From: Paenibacillus sp. yr247 | Lineage (GTDB): Bacteria > Bacillota > Bacilli > Paenibacillales > NBRC-103111 | Assembly (NCBI RefSeq): GCF_900103825.1 | Contig: NZ_FNIF01000002.1 | Coordinates: 372,001-436,000, forward strand | Direction of reading: 5' to 3' | Length of the DNA stretch: 64,000 bases | Shown: in pieces, positions 31,549 through 39,387 of the stretch | Layout: each line of letters starts with the position of its first letter | Position numbering within the stretch: the stretch's first letter is position 1 | Notes under the pieces: generated by a model | Databases searched by the model: none | What the model was told of the DNA's origin: nothing | What the model saw: only the letters and a program-made list of their open reading frames with translations | Program-made: the position numbers and the translations under genes

Positions 31549-32433
31549 TTATCGCTTCTTACCCAGATTGAGCTCTTTCATAATTTGGCGACCTGTCGGT
31601 GTCTGGGCCAAGCCCCCCTTGGCTGTCTCCCGGTGTTTCTCAGGCATAGCCGTACCCACCTCATACATCACTTGGACGACTTCATCCGAAGGGATGACAG
31701 ATCGAACACCAGCCAAAGCCATATCGGCTGCCGCCATCGCATTAACCGCCCCAAATCCGTTGCGAACGATACAAGGAATTTCAACCAAACCGCCAACAGG
31801 GTCGCAAATAAGTCCCAGTGTGTTCTTAAGCGCAAGCCCCACGGCATGCATCGCCTGTTCCGGTGTGCCGCCCCGAAGTTCCACAAGAGCGCCCGCTGCC
31901 ATACCTATGGCAGACCCGACTTCAGCCTGGCATCCGCCTTCCGCACCCGAGACGAAGGAATTGTTGGCAATGACATAACCGATGGCACCGGCGCTTAATA
32001 AGCCTCTCACCATATGATCGTCATCCCATCCAAACCGCTGCTGACTGCTAATGAAAACACCTGGAATAATCCCACAAGAGCCAGCCGTCGGTGTGGCAAT
32101 GATTCGGCCCATGGATGCGTTAACTTCCGATACGGCAAGGGCATACGCCATCGCTTTGCAAGCTTCTTCACCTAAGGATGCTTCCGAAGTTGTTAAATAA
32201 GTGGCGACACGCTGAGCGTCTTTCCCCGTCAACCCACTGCGGGATGTTGTATCCTCGGTCAATCCTTTGGCAACTGCCTCTTTCATAATTTGATAATACG
32301 CCTGCATCTTTTCGAATACATATTCAGGTGTTTTGCCTGATTCTTGGCTTTGATCCGCAAGCATGACTTCTGCAATGGTTAATCCCTCAGAAGCACATAC
32401 CTCCGCTAGTTGTTTCAATGTCTGGAATCTCAT
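31549..32433 (-). CDS. sdaAA: L-serine dehydratase, iron-sulfur-dependent, alpha subunit
   Basis: 294 residues. Deaminates L-serine to pyruvate and ammonia together with SdaAB. Family motifs: MAYALAVSEVNASMGRIIAT, PTAGSCGIIPGVF, GGCQAEVGSAIGMAAGALVE, and the cysteine motif LICDPVGGLVEIPCIVRN that helps hold the [4Fe-4S] cluster. Start ATG directly follows the sdaAB stop (TAA-ATG) with GAGGCG upstream, so the subunits are translationally coupled. Confidence 0.95.
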   Translation of the reverse strand: MRFQTLKQLAEVCASEGLTIAEVMLADQSQESGKTPEYVFEKMQAYYQIMKEAVAKGLTEDTTSRSGLTGKDAQRVATYLTTSEASLGEEACKAMAYALAVSEVNASMGRIIATPTAGSCGIIPGVFISSQQRFGWDDDHMVRGLLSAGAIGYVIANNSFVSGAEGGCQAEVGSAIGMAAGALVELRGGTPEQAMHAVGLALKNTLGLICDPVGGLVEIPCIVRNGFGAVNAMAAADMALAGVRSVIPSDEVVQVMYEVGTAMPEKHRETAKGGLAQTPTGRQIMKELNLGKKR

Positions 32434-33111
32434 TTATTCGCCTCTTTCCGCGAGATCCACTCTTCTTATATCGTAAATCATACTTAAGCTCTTAAGCTCT
32501 TGAATAAGAGAATCTGGAATAGATACATCTGTTTCAATTACTGTCATCGCTTCCCGATCTCGGCCTTTCCGATCCAAATCCATGAACCCGATATTAATTT
32601 GGCTTCGCCCCAATAAGGTGGTAATATCCGCTATCATACCTGGACGATCATGGTGGGAAATAACTAACGTAGGGTATACCGCGGTAAATTTCACGTCGAA
32701 ATGATTCACTTTGACAATTTCCACGTTACCACCTCCGATGGATGCTCCAGTCATACTCACTTCCCGTGTACTTGATGAAATAATGAATCCGACGGTGTTG
32801 GGATGATCTGCTTTATCTTTACTTGTACGGAAAGCAATCTCTACACCGAGCGCTTCAGCTTCTTCGGCAGCAAAAGGAATACGTGGATCATCGGTTTCAA
32901 AATCCAGTAAACCGCCAATTAGTGCCAAATCGGTGCCATGCCCTCGATAAGTATCCGCGAAAGAACCGTACAGCGTGATTTCAGCTTTTGTTGGCAGTTC
33001 ACCTAGCAGCTGTCTGACAACACGACCTAACCGAACCGCTCCTGCGGTATGAGAGCTTGATGGACCGATCATAGAAGGTCCGATGATCGAAAATACATCT
33101 TTAAAACGCAT
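32434..33111 (-). CDS. sdaAB: L-serine dehydratase, iron-sulfur-dependent, beta subunit
   Basis: 225 residues. N-terminal SDH beta domain with VFSIIGPSMIGPSSSHTAGAV and YGSFADTYRGHGTDLALIGG; C-terminal ACT domain (about 145-220: PTLVISHHDRPGMIADITTL), which in the family binds serine as a regulator. The ATG at 33111 has GGAGAG 7 bases upstream. First gene of the sdaAB-sdaAA operon, behind a well-formed promoter. Works on the same one-carbon/serine-glycine node as the glycine cleavage system encoded 5 kb away. Confidence 0.93.
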   Translation of the reverse strand: MRFKDVFSIIGPSMIGPSSSHTAGAVRLGRVVRQLLGELPTKAEITLYGSFADTYRGHGTDLALIGGLLDFETDDPRIPFAAEEAEALGVEIAFRTSKDKADHPNTVGFIISSSTREVSMTGASIGGGNVEIVKVNHFDVKFTAVYPTLVISHHDRPGMIADITTLLGRSQINIGFMDLDRKGRDREAMTVIETDVSIPDSLIQELKSLSMIYDIRRVDLAERGE

Positions 33112-33151
33112 CTTGCAGCTCTCCAATCTAATGTGTTGATGCTATACTCCT

Positions 33152-33289: not shown

Positions 33290-33324
33290 CTACCCTCACA
33301 CTGGTAATGAGGATATGGATCGCT
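33290..33324 (-). terminator. Terminator of the redoxin-chemoreceptor gene
   Basis: AGCGATC (33294-33300) and GATCGCT (33318-33324) with an inner CCTCA/TGAGG stem. On the minus strand the hairpin ends in TTTTTC. Confidence 0.75.
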
Positions 33325-33354: not shown

Positions 33355-34692
33355 TCATTTTTTCGGCTTTTTCGTTCTCTCATCCAAAGCATTCAGTTGA
33401 TCAACATGATAATGCATATCCTGCATGATTTCATTGACTTCATTGTTTATGGTCGTTTCAACTTCTTGAATTTTACTTAAATCATTTTGTGCATGATGTT
33501 GGCTGTCCTTGATATGACTTAATTCGTTACCTAGTTGGAGCGTACCGTCAGCCATGAGCTTAACCCCATCGGATATGGAAAGAATATGAGAGGAATTTAC
33601 CGAAATTCGCTCTCTAACCGTATTCATCGTTTGTTCAAAAGTAGAAAAAGACGAAAAACTTTCATTGATTTTCTCATCAATGGCTTGAAGCTGTGACGTG
33701 ATATTACCTGCGGACTCCTCCGTTCCATGAGCCAATTTGCTCACTTCCTGAGCGACAACGGCGAAGCCCTTGCCATGCTCGCCAGCACGTGCGGCTTCAA
33801 TAGATGCGTTTAAGGCTAAAATTTTCGTTTGTCTGGAAATTTGGGAGATGACGTCACTCATTTCATTGACCACATTCGTCATGCTAATCAATTCATCCAT
33901 TAATCCGCGCGTCGTTTGAATGTTATGACTCAATTGTTCATTCAATTGCTGAATTTCCATGAATTCATGGGATGTTGTGTTCAGCTGATGACTAAATTGG
34001 TTTAATTCCTCATACTTCCTCTGATAATCACTAACGAATTCCTCTAATTGCTCAAAATTACTTAGAGATGCTTTCTTTAATCCTTCAATATTATGTAAAT
34101 TGCTCTCTATACTCTTCGTCACATAGGCTGCAGAAGTATTCACATGCTCAAGCGTGGATTTCATGTTAGCTAAGAAAACAGGAAGCTCGTCTTGAAGTGA
34201 GTTTGCATCATCAGAGACAATAGAAAGTGAGTCTATGACCTCTAAGATTTCTTTCGCAGATGGCCGGTCACCTTGATTCTCACCAATATAGGAATATCGA
34301 ATGGTTTGGTTTTCATCAATCATATAAGTGCTTGGAATTGCAATTCGGAATGAGTCCCATTTAATTGGCGTGAAAACCTCATAAGCTTTGATCACTTGTC
34401 TGGTTTCATCCGAAAGAATCGGAAATTTAATGCCGTTGGCATTCACATAATCTTGAATGTTGGCCAGCTTTTGACCTGCAATGGCAATGAGATTGATGCC
34501 CTTTTCCAAAAAACGTTCATAATACTCATTAAGCTCCGGCATCTGTTTCTGGCAGTTATGACACCATGTCCCACGCAAAAAAATAATAACTAATGGCTTG
34601 CCCTTAAACTCTTCCAGTCCTCTGATTCCCTGCGTAGAATCTAATCGAAATGGCGCTGCTTTTTTTCCTATAGATAAACCTTTCTTAGCCAT
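33355..34692 (-). CDS. Redoxin (AhpC/TSA-thioredoxin-like) domain fused to a soluble methyl-accepting chemotaxis signalling domain
   Basis: 445 residues, no membrane helix. Residues about 5-155 form a thioredoxin-fold redoxin: [20 protein letters not shown] places Cys44 and Cys47 in a WCxxC site, and [10 protein letters not shown] supplies the cis-proline (Pro120). Residues about 165-440 are a helical MCP signalling domain with the conserved hairpin tip: [19 protein letters not shown] (about 293-310), then [20 protein letters not shown]. So a redox-active sensor is joined to a CheA/CheW-binding output. I infer a cytoplasmic chemoreceptor for thiol or peroxide state. Monocistronic, with GAGGTGG just before the ATG, a 21-base palindrome upstream and its own terminator. 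No che or flagellar genes are in the window. Confidence 0.9.
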
Positions 34693-34730
34693 GCTGCCAC
34701 CTCAGTTTTGCATATTATTCGTATATCGCT

Positions 34731-37287: not shown

Positions 37288-37396
37288 GGGATCTTTGGTT
37301 GGAGACCAAAGTCTCTCCTTTTTAAGGGATCTTTGGTTGGAGACCAAAGTCTCTCCTTTTTAAGGGATCTTTGGTTGGAGACCAAAGTCTCTCCTT
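37288..37396. repeat. Three direct copies of a 33-nt palindromic repeat (38-nt period)
   Basis: Units start at 37288, 37326 and 37364, each beginning GGGATCTTTGGTTGGAGACC and ending AAAGTCTCTCCTT, separated by TTTAA. CTTTGGT can pair with ACCAAAG and GAGAC with GTCTC, giving two mutually exclusive hairpins. The last copy overlaps the gcvH stop codon. A variant family member occurs twice at 10191-10260. Confidence 0.9.
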
Positions 37397-37787
37397 ATTG
37401 GTCGTTTCCGATATAAGAAGCATATTCAGCTGGGGTAAGCAAGCCTTCCAATGCATCAGCACCAGAAACTTCAACCTCGACCATCCAGCCCTCACCGAAA
37501 GGCGCACTATTCACCAGCTCAGGTGAACTTTCCAACGTACTATTTACAGCAGTCACTTTACCCGAGATTGGGGAGAAAATATCTGAAACCGTTTTAACCG
37601 ATTCCACACTCCCAATGCTTTCATTCGCTGTAACGGATGATCCGGTTTTGGGAAGCTCCACAAACACAATATCACCCAATTGATCTTGGGCAAAATCAGT
37701 AATACCTACGCGAACAATTGTATCCGACAGCTTCTCTACCCACTCATGCTCTTTGGTGTATAACAAATTGGCTTGTACTTCACTCAT
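37395..37787 (-). CDS. gcvH: Glycine cleavage system H protein
   Basis: 130-residue lipoyl carrier of the glycine cleavage complex, shuttling the aminomethyl group between P, T and L proteins. The lipoylated lysine is Lys65 in IGSVESVKTVSD. Features YTKEHEWVEKLSDTIVRVGI and FAQDQLGDIVFVELP are typical. It is on the opposite strand from gcvT-gcvPA-gcvPB, diverging from them, so it is not under the tandem glycine riboswitch. Its stop codon lies within the third copy of a palindromic repeat. Confidence 0.95.
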   Translation of the reverse strand: MSEVQANLLYTKEHEWVEKLSDTIVRVGITDFAQDQLGDIVFVELPKTGSSVTANESIGSVESVKTVSDIFSPISGKVTAVNSTLESSPELVNSAPFGEGWMVEVEVSGADALEGLLTPAEYASYIGNDQ

Positions 37788-37925
37788 CGTTTTTACGCCT
37801 CGCTTACCAGCAAATTTTGCTTTTAGCTTAATCTAAGGGGAACATCAAAGTCAAGGCTCACACAGTAAATTTTACCCAACGAAGCCAGACTCGATTCTCC
37901 ACCTCTCTTTTTAGAAAAATTGCAG

Positions 37926-37954
37926 TTGACAATCAACACCATCTGGGCAAATAT
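37926..37954 (+). promoter_or_regulatory. Possible promoter of the glycine riboswitch-gcv operon
   Basis: A consensus TTGACA (37926-37931) is followed after 17 bases by AAATAT; a TATTAA overlaps slightly further. Transcription from here would begin about 35 bases before the first glycine aptamer. Confidence 0.5.
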
Positions 37955-37996
37955 TAATATCATAAAATAAATTGAATATTGGCGAATGATGGTATA

Positions 37997-38190
37997 GGGA
38001 GAGACCGCAGTTAAGCTCGCGGCGCCGAAGGAGTAAGCCCAGCAGTGGTGAATCTCTCAGGCAAAAGGACCTGTATCGGACGCAACTCTGGAGAGCTTCG
38101 ATTTGCCGCAATGGCGGAAAATCGGACACCCAAGGGGAAACTTGACGGACCTCGAAGTCCGAAGAGGTAACTCTCAGGTAAAAAGGACAG
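37997..38190 (+). ncRNA. Tandem glycine riboswitch (gcvT element)
   Basis: Two glycine aptamers in series. The first starts at GGGAGAGACCGCAG and ends with CTCTCAGGCAAAAGGAC; the second ends with CTCTCAGGTAAAAAGGACAG near 38190. The paired conserved segments (GGAGAG...CTCTCAGG...AAAAGGAC) appear in both. The known class activates glycine cleavage genes when glycine is abundant; the terminator just downstream indicates transcription control. Confidence 0.93.
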
Positions 38191-38191
38191 G

Positions 38192-38233
38192 GCAAAAGGT
38201 ATGTTTGTGTTGCATACGTTTTGCTCTTTTTTT
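38192..38233 (+). terminator. Riboswitch-controlled terminator upstream of gcvT
   Basis: GCAAAA-GTATG pairs with CATAC-TTTTGC, followed by a run of seven T residues. Its position directly after the second glycine aptamer makes it the expression platform. Confidence 0.88.
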
Positions 38234-38292
38234 GCATTTTTTGGGCAAAATACCTGTAGTACAAAATGTGGATCGAAGGTGAGGATACGAGC

Positions 38293-39387
38293 ATGTTAAA
38301 ACGAACACCGCTCTTCCCGATTTATGCGGAGCATGGAGCGCGAGTCATTGATTTTGGAGGCTGGGAGCTGCCCGTGCAGTTCGCTGGTATTCAAAAAGAG
38401 CACGACGCCGTCAGGCAGCAGGCCGGACTATTTGACGTGTCCCATATGGGCGAAGTCAGGGTAAGCGGAGATGACGCCCTCTCTTTTTTACAAAAAATAA
38501 CGACGAACGATGTGTCCAAGCTGGAAGCAGGTCAATGCCAATATAGCCTCATGTGCTATCCGAATGGGGGCGTTGTGGACGATCTGCTCGTTTACAAGTT
38601 GGGCGACAACGACTACATGCTGGTTATCAATGCTTCCAATATCGATAAAGATGTGAATTGGATGCTGCAAAACCTCACAGGCCGTGTGGAACTCACAAAC
38701 ATTTCTGAGGAAACAGCGATGCTTGCTTTGCAGGGACCACATGCGGAACAGATTTTGGCTAAAGTAACAGACGCACCAATCCAGTCCTTGAAAACGTTTC
38801 GATTCCTATCCGAGGCGAATGTTGCAGGTATTAACGCACTCTTATCGCGCACAGGCTACACAGGGGAAGACGGCTTCGAGCTCTATATCGATCAAAAGGA
38901 TGCTGTGAAGCTGTGGAAACTGCTTCTGGAGGCAGGCCAAGAACATGGTCTTATACCAGCCGGCTTAGGCGCTCGCGATACGCTGCGTTTTGAAGCTCGT
39001 CTCCCCCTGTACGGGCAAGAGCTCTCCAAAGATATTACGCCGCTAGAGGCTGGACTTTCCTTTTTTGTGAAGCTGGATAAAGGAGATTTCATAGGTCGTG
39101 ACGTGATCGCTGGGCAAAAGGCAAATGGTACGCCTCGCAAGCTCGTCGGCATCGAAATGCTTGAACGCGGTATCCCGCGTCCGCATTATGCTGTCTTCAC
39201 TACTGACGGTAAACAGATCGGTGAAGTCACAACAGGGACGCAATCTCCTACTTTCAAAACGAACGTTGGCTTGGCTTTAATCGATTCAGCTTACAGTGCG
39301 CTGGGTACGGAAGTGAATGTGGAAATTAGAGGGGCACAAGTAAGAGCTAAAGTCGTTGCCACCCCTTTTTATAAAAGAAAACCGTAA
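38293..39387 (+). CDS. gcvT: Aminomethyltransferase (glycine cleavage T protein)
   Basis: 364 residues. Transfers the methylene group from the H-protein arm to tetrahydrofolate. Motifs: [42 protein letters not shown] and the C-terminal GCV_T_C domain with [12 protein letters not shown] and [15 protein letters not shown] at 38293 chosen for GGTGAGG 8 bases upstream; an upstream frame to 38266 is not needed. First gene of the riboswitch-controlled gcvT-gcvPA-gcvPB operon. Confidence 0.96.

Follow-up and report, generated by a model that had tools for sequence, protein, structure and literature searches.

Input domains of MCPs include PAS, globin, CZB and CACHE, and chemoreceptors that lie in the cytoplasm are a known kind among them. 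The gene described here shares with the cytoplasmic MCPs (PF00015) the signalling hairpin, its tip motif and the lack of membrane helices, but its input domain is a redoxin rather than one of those four, and the protein encoded in the window has no methylation consensus. The CZB receptors TlpD of Helicobacter pylori and McpA of Salmonella couple oxidant or redox conditions to taxis; in the accessible part of that source they are described with a 3His-1Cys zinc site, whereas in the fusion a thioredoxin fold carries the pair, CxxC or UxxC (PMC13370339). McpR resembles the fusion in being a cytoplasmic receptor with a key cysteine and a link between reactive oxygen species (ROS) and chemotaxis, but its sensor domain binds copper and, in the accessible part of the paper, is not called a redoxin (PMC10579534). 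Prx-like thiol:disulfide oxidoreductase selenoproteins (pfam00578, UxxC) and a UxxC selenoprotein of the Redoxin family have also been described, and these, like the TGA-bearing relatives discussed below, have an AhpC-TSA/Redoxin fold with selenocysteine (Sec) first in UxxC; in the accessible parts of the two reviews a fusion to a chemoreceptor is unmentioned for them, and the word chemotaxis is absent from the main text of both (PMC9312934, PMC13188914).

ResA/TlpA-type thiol-disulfide oxidoreductases have in common with the redoxin of the fusion the WCxxC motif, the aligned Pro and the closest solved structures, while the fusion has no hydrophobic anchor, is cytoplasmic and joined to an MCP part, and scores 81 bits against the NCBIfam ResA cut-off of 170. 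In the open-access PMC literature, neither a redoxin-MCP fusion nor a chemotaxis selenoprotein was found among the matches listed; architecture databases may list the fusion. The kind of receptor is an established one, and what appears to be new is the redoxin input domain with its Sec/Cys switch.

The window, that is, the whole stretch of 64,000 nucleotides from Paenibacillus sp. yr247 that was analysed, holds the fusion gene on its minus strand with the following features:

34697..34702, minus strand: likely ribosome-binding site AGGTGG, read off the sequence upstream of the ATG
33355..34692, minus strand: redoxin-MCP fusion gene, 445 codons plus stop, ATG start, a single open frame
34243..34671, minus strand: redoxin (AhpC-TSA/Redoxin) domain, residues 8-150 (Pfam PF00578 and PF08534; PDB ResA and peroxiredoxin chains)
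34552..34563, minus strand: C44-H-N-C47 active site; the C44 codon is TGT here and TGA in the probable Sec-type relatives
34333..34335, minus strand: Pro120, in one alignment column with a ResA-like Pro from the same genome
34327..34359, minus strand: 11-residue signature, residues 112-122, identical across 14 of 14 aligned fusions
33928..34218, minus strand: variable linker and distal N-terminal arm, residues 159-255, with lower identity to homologues than the redoxin
33532..33927, minus strand: MCP signalling domain, residues 256-387 (PF00015; PDB chemoreceptors)
33742..33798, minus strand: hairpin tip, expected CheA/CheW contact, residues 299-317, conserved in aligned fusions
33291..33315, minus strand: terminator-like stem-loop 3' of the gene, by pattern only

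The first-pass annotation had described a single 445-residue protein of redoxin and MCP parts at 33355..34692; the open reading frame agrees with this exactly, the minus strand being absent from that claim, and its placing of Cys44, Cys47, Pro120 and an intact hairpin tip is correct. AhpC-TSA (PF00578) matches residues 8-133 with 97.1 bits (Pfam cut-off 26), Redoxin (PF08534) residues 26-150 with 78.4 bits (cut-off 26.6), and MCPsignal (PF00015) residues 256-387 with 95.4 bits (cut-off 34.6). Among the 25 of 26 NCBIfam matches listed, no model exceeds its curated cut-off for the fusion, and none of the nine Pfam families listed at E 0.001 is a CZB domain. The redoxin part is closest in PDB to ResA and peroxiredoxin-type chains, with strong sequence homology, and the MCP part has relatives in the aerotaxis receptor 31cj and the MCP chains 3g6b and 2ch7.

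The lack of a membrane helix, also claimed earlier, is confirmed by a hydropathy scan, which finds no membrane or hydrophobic segment: the peak 19-residue mean is 0.79 in the fusion and 2.4-2.8 in three MCPs of the same genome. C44 and C47 are the only cysteines of the window protein, and exactly two Cys/Sec positions per protein occur in all 21 fusions counted (of 27). From the fold Pro120 is expected to be in the cis geometry, and tip residues 299-317 presumably make the contact with CheA and CheW. Terminator-like stem-loops number three in the region, compared with 1.3 (sd 1.2) in shuffled sequences.

Full-length orthologues of 442-444 codons, 71-90% identical, were found in 12 of 29 other Paenibacillus genomes (13 of 30 with the window's own). 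Carriers include Paenibacillus alginolyticus, P. phytorum, P. alba, P. ferrarius, P. pectinilyticus, P. marchantiophytorum and two further Paenibacillus strains. Because the same full-length ORF recurs in this many genomes, a join or frameshift artefact near 34220, the sequencing error that the first-pass annotation had named as able to overturn its claim, is ruled out. All 13 orthologues agree at C44, C47 and P120 and over most of the two catalytic blocks.

The fusion also occurs outside the genus. A profile search at the order level (392 genomes) gave one extra carrier (G200), a phylum sample (398 genomes) gave G780 and the window's own genome, and a class sample (398 genomes) gave three extra carriers (G1057, G1073 and G1132). 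The family of G780 (f17) has the full fusion in 10 of 193 genomes, the redoxin alone in two and a C-terminal fragment in one, and the 14 genomes of the order of G1132 contain no additional fusion. None of 4314 matching plasmid records covers 80% of the query, and of five stretches of viral contigs that matched a pattern none was confirmed. The full-length fusion was found in 27 genomes in total and is real, conserved and uncommon, as the earlier claim of rarity had it; stand-alone redoxins from its own subfamily also occur.

Conservation is unevenly spread along the protein. The hairpin tip is identical or nearly so in 14 aligned fusions, and identity to seven homologues is 53-82% in the redoxin and 58-79% in the tip region, as against 21-59% in the linker with the distal N-terminal arm and 20-66% in the distal arms.

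Eleven of the 27 fusions, namely all ten of f17 and that of G1132 (family f179), have TGA at the Cys44 codon, and the remaining 16 have a Cys codon there. TGA is also found at this codon in four stand-alone redoxins (G862, G860, G1017 and G1188), which brings the TGA loci to 15, spanning five genera and four families. In wider alignments the Cys44 column is Cys or TGA, never TAA or TAG, and both the reading frame and the protein similarity run on at either side of the TGA. Judged by their sequences, the TGA-bearing relatives are very probably selenoproteins, which would mark residue 44 as a redox nucleophile. A position that is Sec in some proteins and Cys in others is classically taken to be redox-active. 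The title of one paper speaks of Sec evolving from redox active cysteine residues (PMC1794560).

The type of the active site was assessed against proteins of the window's own genome, whose names (ResA-like, and peroxiredoxin-like for L011 and L017) were assigned by eye. Cys44 aligns with the first Cys of the ResA-like CxxC and with the Thr of TxxC in L011 and L017, whose peroxidatic column corresponds to Cys47; Pro120 aligns with the ResA-like Pro and with Arg in L011 and L017. The fusion has no Thr three residues before a peroxidatic Cys, as peroxiredoxins proper do; it has the CxxC and the aligned Pro of the ResA type, but not the extracytoplasmic location of that type, as it is without a hydrophobic segment. 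The redox-sensor reading of the first-pass annotation therefore stands in part: the fusion is real, its Cys pair is invariant, and TGA in place of the Cys44 codon in relatives supports a redox-active residue 44, but the peroxide input does not follow from the domain name, because Cys44 falls in the Thr column and Pro120 in the Arg column of the peroxiredoxin-like proteins. The chemistry looks more like thiol-disulfide exchange than like that of a classical peroxidatic cysteine, and peroxide is no likelier as the input than disulfide stress or the thioredoxin pool.

We propose, with a probability of roughly 0.74, that the protein is a cytoplasmic chemoreceptor in which the Cys-Cys or Sec-Cys pair of a thioredoxin-fold redoxin would report redox state to CheA. 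Residue 44 (Cys or Sec) would be oxidised by intracellular oxidants, either peroxide or disulfides, and Cys47 would then close a disulfide or selenenylsulfide with it. Closure of the 44/47 bond would change the shape of the redoxin, and this change would pass via the variable linker into the helical hairpin, alter CheA activity and hence swimming, and be reset by thioredoxin or another thiol reductant. Sec could make the switch faster or more reversible in some lineages, the window organism having the Cys form. Oxidation of residue 44 and closure with Cys47 appear supported by the logic of the sequence; transmission and output we infer from the architecture and the conservation of the tip.

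Partners for such a receptor seem to be at hand, as the window's own genome has two adjoining PF01584 loci with open frames of 691 aa (the size of CheA) and 162 aa (the size of CheW), and CheA- and CheW-type genes are also present in all six other carriers tested. The sigma-D promoter, whose consensus is familiar, is that of flagellar and chemotaxis genes. Each of the ten f17 fusions (L064, L067-L075; these genes are related and not independent) has a sigma-D-like site, TAAN-14/15-GCCGATAA/T, that starts 63-88 nt ahead of its start codon and ties these fusions to motility. For seven of these promoter sites, 0-10 of 100 shuffles were equally good. Sites with a score of at least 10 number 28 in 77,922 bases on both strands of nine f17 loci, nine promoter sites included, so that fewer than 0.1 would be expected per 200 bases. 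The core of the f17 site is fixed and the surrounding intergenic stretch drifts. Two of eight stand-alone redoxins reach an equal promoter score: L077 has GCCGATAA, and the core of L128 is poorer.

A sigma-D promoter for the window gene was considered and rejected, its best site scoring 9 of 12 and being equalled by 40 of 100 shuffles. No sigma-D-like site rises above the shuffle level in the 13 genes tested from the window's family, this one included, nor in the fusions of G1057, G1073 and G1132, the last of which is a Sec form. Gene neighbourhood was likewise discarded as a clue to the signal, as it offered no functional link: no conserved neighbour would name the signal. Three of eight named Paenibacillus loci (L050, L051 and L054) are followed directly by serine dehydratase genes, which in L053 come after an insertion and are absent from the 4.3 kb of L064, the only f17 locus with neighbours listed. 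In the window itself, serine dehydratase alpha/beta genes (downstream) and glycine-cleavage H/T genes (nearby) occupy 31549-33126 and 37395-39387, which by Pfam are ordinary metabolism.

The known consensus of MCP methylation sites, in strict or relaxed form, has no match in the window protein. Strict matches were found in three of 11 fusions scanned (G1057, G1073 and G1132) and in all three own-genome MCPs that were readable, of eight loci. Another locus of this genome (L007:1501-1791) resembles an MCP but is interrupted by an in-frame TAA, and may be a broken receptor gene.

A window protein without methylation consensus would suit an alternative that we consider unlikely, though worth weighing, in which the redoxin is an enzyme parked at the chemoreceptor array, reducing disulfides or peroxides nearby or on Che proteins, while the MCP part serves chiefly to place it there and not to pass on a signal. 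The fully conserved catalytic site, with Sec in some members, is enzyme-like, and stand-alone forms of the same redoxin exist; such forms, however, could do the enzymatic job without any fusion, and a tip about as conserved as the redoxin is needless for a mere anchor.

We regard as quite improbable a second alternative without any redox switch, in which the dithiol binds a partner protein or a metal and the receptor reports the binding: a CxxC pair can bind Cu or Zn, but replacement of one Cys by Sec, with fold and motif intact, is typical of redox catalysis and not of metal binding. A precedent on the side of metal is cytoplasmic McpR, in which, according to the accessible part of its description, Cys and His coordinate Cu and Cu taxis is tied to ROS (PMC10579534).

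The TGA loci of the relatives were compared with Cys loci for a bSECIS element, whose published limits are a loop of 3-9 nt, a stem of 4-16 bp, G in the first two loop positions, a distance of 16-37 nt from the UGA and an energy of at most -7.5. With this geometry and our own limit of -5 kcal/mol for the hairpin alone, an element was found in 14 of 14 TGA loci and in none of 20 Cys loci (14 of the 15 TGA loci entered the comparison, L070 being equal to L069 in this stretch). The hairpin alone reaches the published -7.5 in 11 of the 14 TGA loci and has -6.2 to -6.4 in the others. It lies 21 nt from the TGA in 12 of 14 loci, 20 nt in L077 and 25 nt in L128, where the hairpin is a different one from the common form.

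The common hairpin is CAGCUG-GUC-CAGCUG; its variants CAGCUC-GGU-GAGCUG in L123 and CCAACUC-GGG-GAGUUGG in L129 change both sides, so that the pairs are kept. Across the 13 distinct rows of the alignment of TGA loci, pairing is kept in 97.4% of cells and two pairs are compensated; none of 500 shuffles matches this percentage, and 62 match the number of compensated pairs. The alignment of Cys loci (18 distinct rows) has 50% of cells paired and zero compensated pairs. Folded as single sequences, the SECIS regions of 11 of the 14 loci give z-scores of modest size, -0.4 to -2.3. In the minimum-energy fold L128 takes another shape and L077 reaches -7.0, and in 60-nt stretches L075 and L076 also adopt another fold.

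Codon usage in nine f17 fusions points in the direction of the RNA. Of the 241 columns whose residue is invariant (counted without Met and Trp, but with the columns of the hairpin and the TGA), 39 use one single codon. Within the hairpin, codons +6, +7, +9, +10 and +11 are single in all nine fusions and +8 in eight of them; codons +9 to +11 make up the longest codon-identical run of the gene (three), no other exceeding two. Elsewhere in these fusions CTG accounts for 15% of 306 Leu codons. As judged from this codon pattern, the constraint on the hairpin acts on the RNA and not on the protein alone.

An Rfam search of ten loci left the SECIS family unmatched and returned two weak unrelated matches below the gathering score. 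A covariance model derived from f17 was tried and abandoned, as similarity of the coding sequence also adds to its score and it failed to tell Sec and Cys forms apart: the Cys form L121 (45.8 bits) is level with the Sec form L123 (45.9), and the Sec form L129 (22.6) is below the Cys form of the window (26.8).

The selenocysteine machinery co-occurs with TGA. SelB scores above the NCBIfam cut-off in 14 of the 15 TGA genomes, the sole miss being the 66% complete G860, and in one of 20 genomes with Cys forms (G1073); it is absent from all 14 tested genomes of the window's family, the window's own included. SelB is also found in six of six other f17 comparison genomes, so that it is necessary and not specific. 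Of the 12 TGA genomes other than G1132, G1017 and G1188, 11 have a tRNA-Sec above the gathering score, with anticodon TCA (ARAGORN), the miss being again G860; this score is exceeded in none of seven tested genomes of the window's family and in five of 14 control genomes. In the window's own genome neither SelB nor tRNA-Sec exceeds the cut-off. That the TGA is instead an ordinary stop, giving a short peptide and an MCP part made from an internal start, with the relatives uninformative on Cys44, is very improbable: the frame does end at the TGA unless recoded, and L064 has a downstream GTG start, but 15 loci from five genera all have TGA, never TAA or TAG, precisely where the Cys44 codon would be, protein-level conservation continues through it, and a SECIS-like element and SelB/tRNA-Sec co-occur with it.

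On balance, and less firmly than for the receptor itself, we favour a broader view, that a Bacilli family of cytoplasmic chemoreceptors senses intracellular redox by a Cys-Cys or Sec-Cys pair; that its Sec forms would be the first chemotaxis selenoproteins, with Sec serving in sensing and not in metabolism or detoxification; and that the Cys form of the window was kept or derived in lineages without Sec machinery. If true, a thiol or selenol would couple cellular redox chemistry directly to swimming, with no need of haem, FAD or zinc, and selenocysteine would have a place in a signalling receptor. That one receptor exists naturally with Cys and with Sec would offer a clean test of what selenium gains in speed, reversibility or resistance to over-oxidation. 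Annotation that reads TGA as a stop would cut such receptors in two.

Several TGA loci have the redoxin without the MCP part. L076 (G862) and L077 (G860) encode a putative Sec redoxin of this kind in the genus that is shared with most Sec fusions, and the stand-alone redoxins L128 (1792-1842) and L129 (1609-1659), in which TGA occupies the Cys column and a SECIS-like hairpin is present, are likely selenoproteins without a receptor part. In Sec/Cys trees the root is not fixed and long branches meet, so that the direction of change is not set by them. The Cys form L121 (1627-1677, G1057) has a six-pair hairpin at the place of the SECIS-like element, without G in the first two loop positions, and this hairpin may be a SECIS remnant after a change from Sec to Cys.
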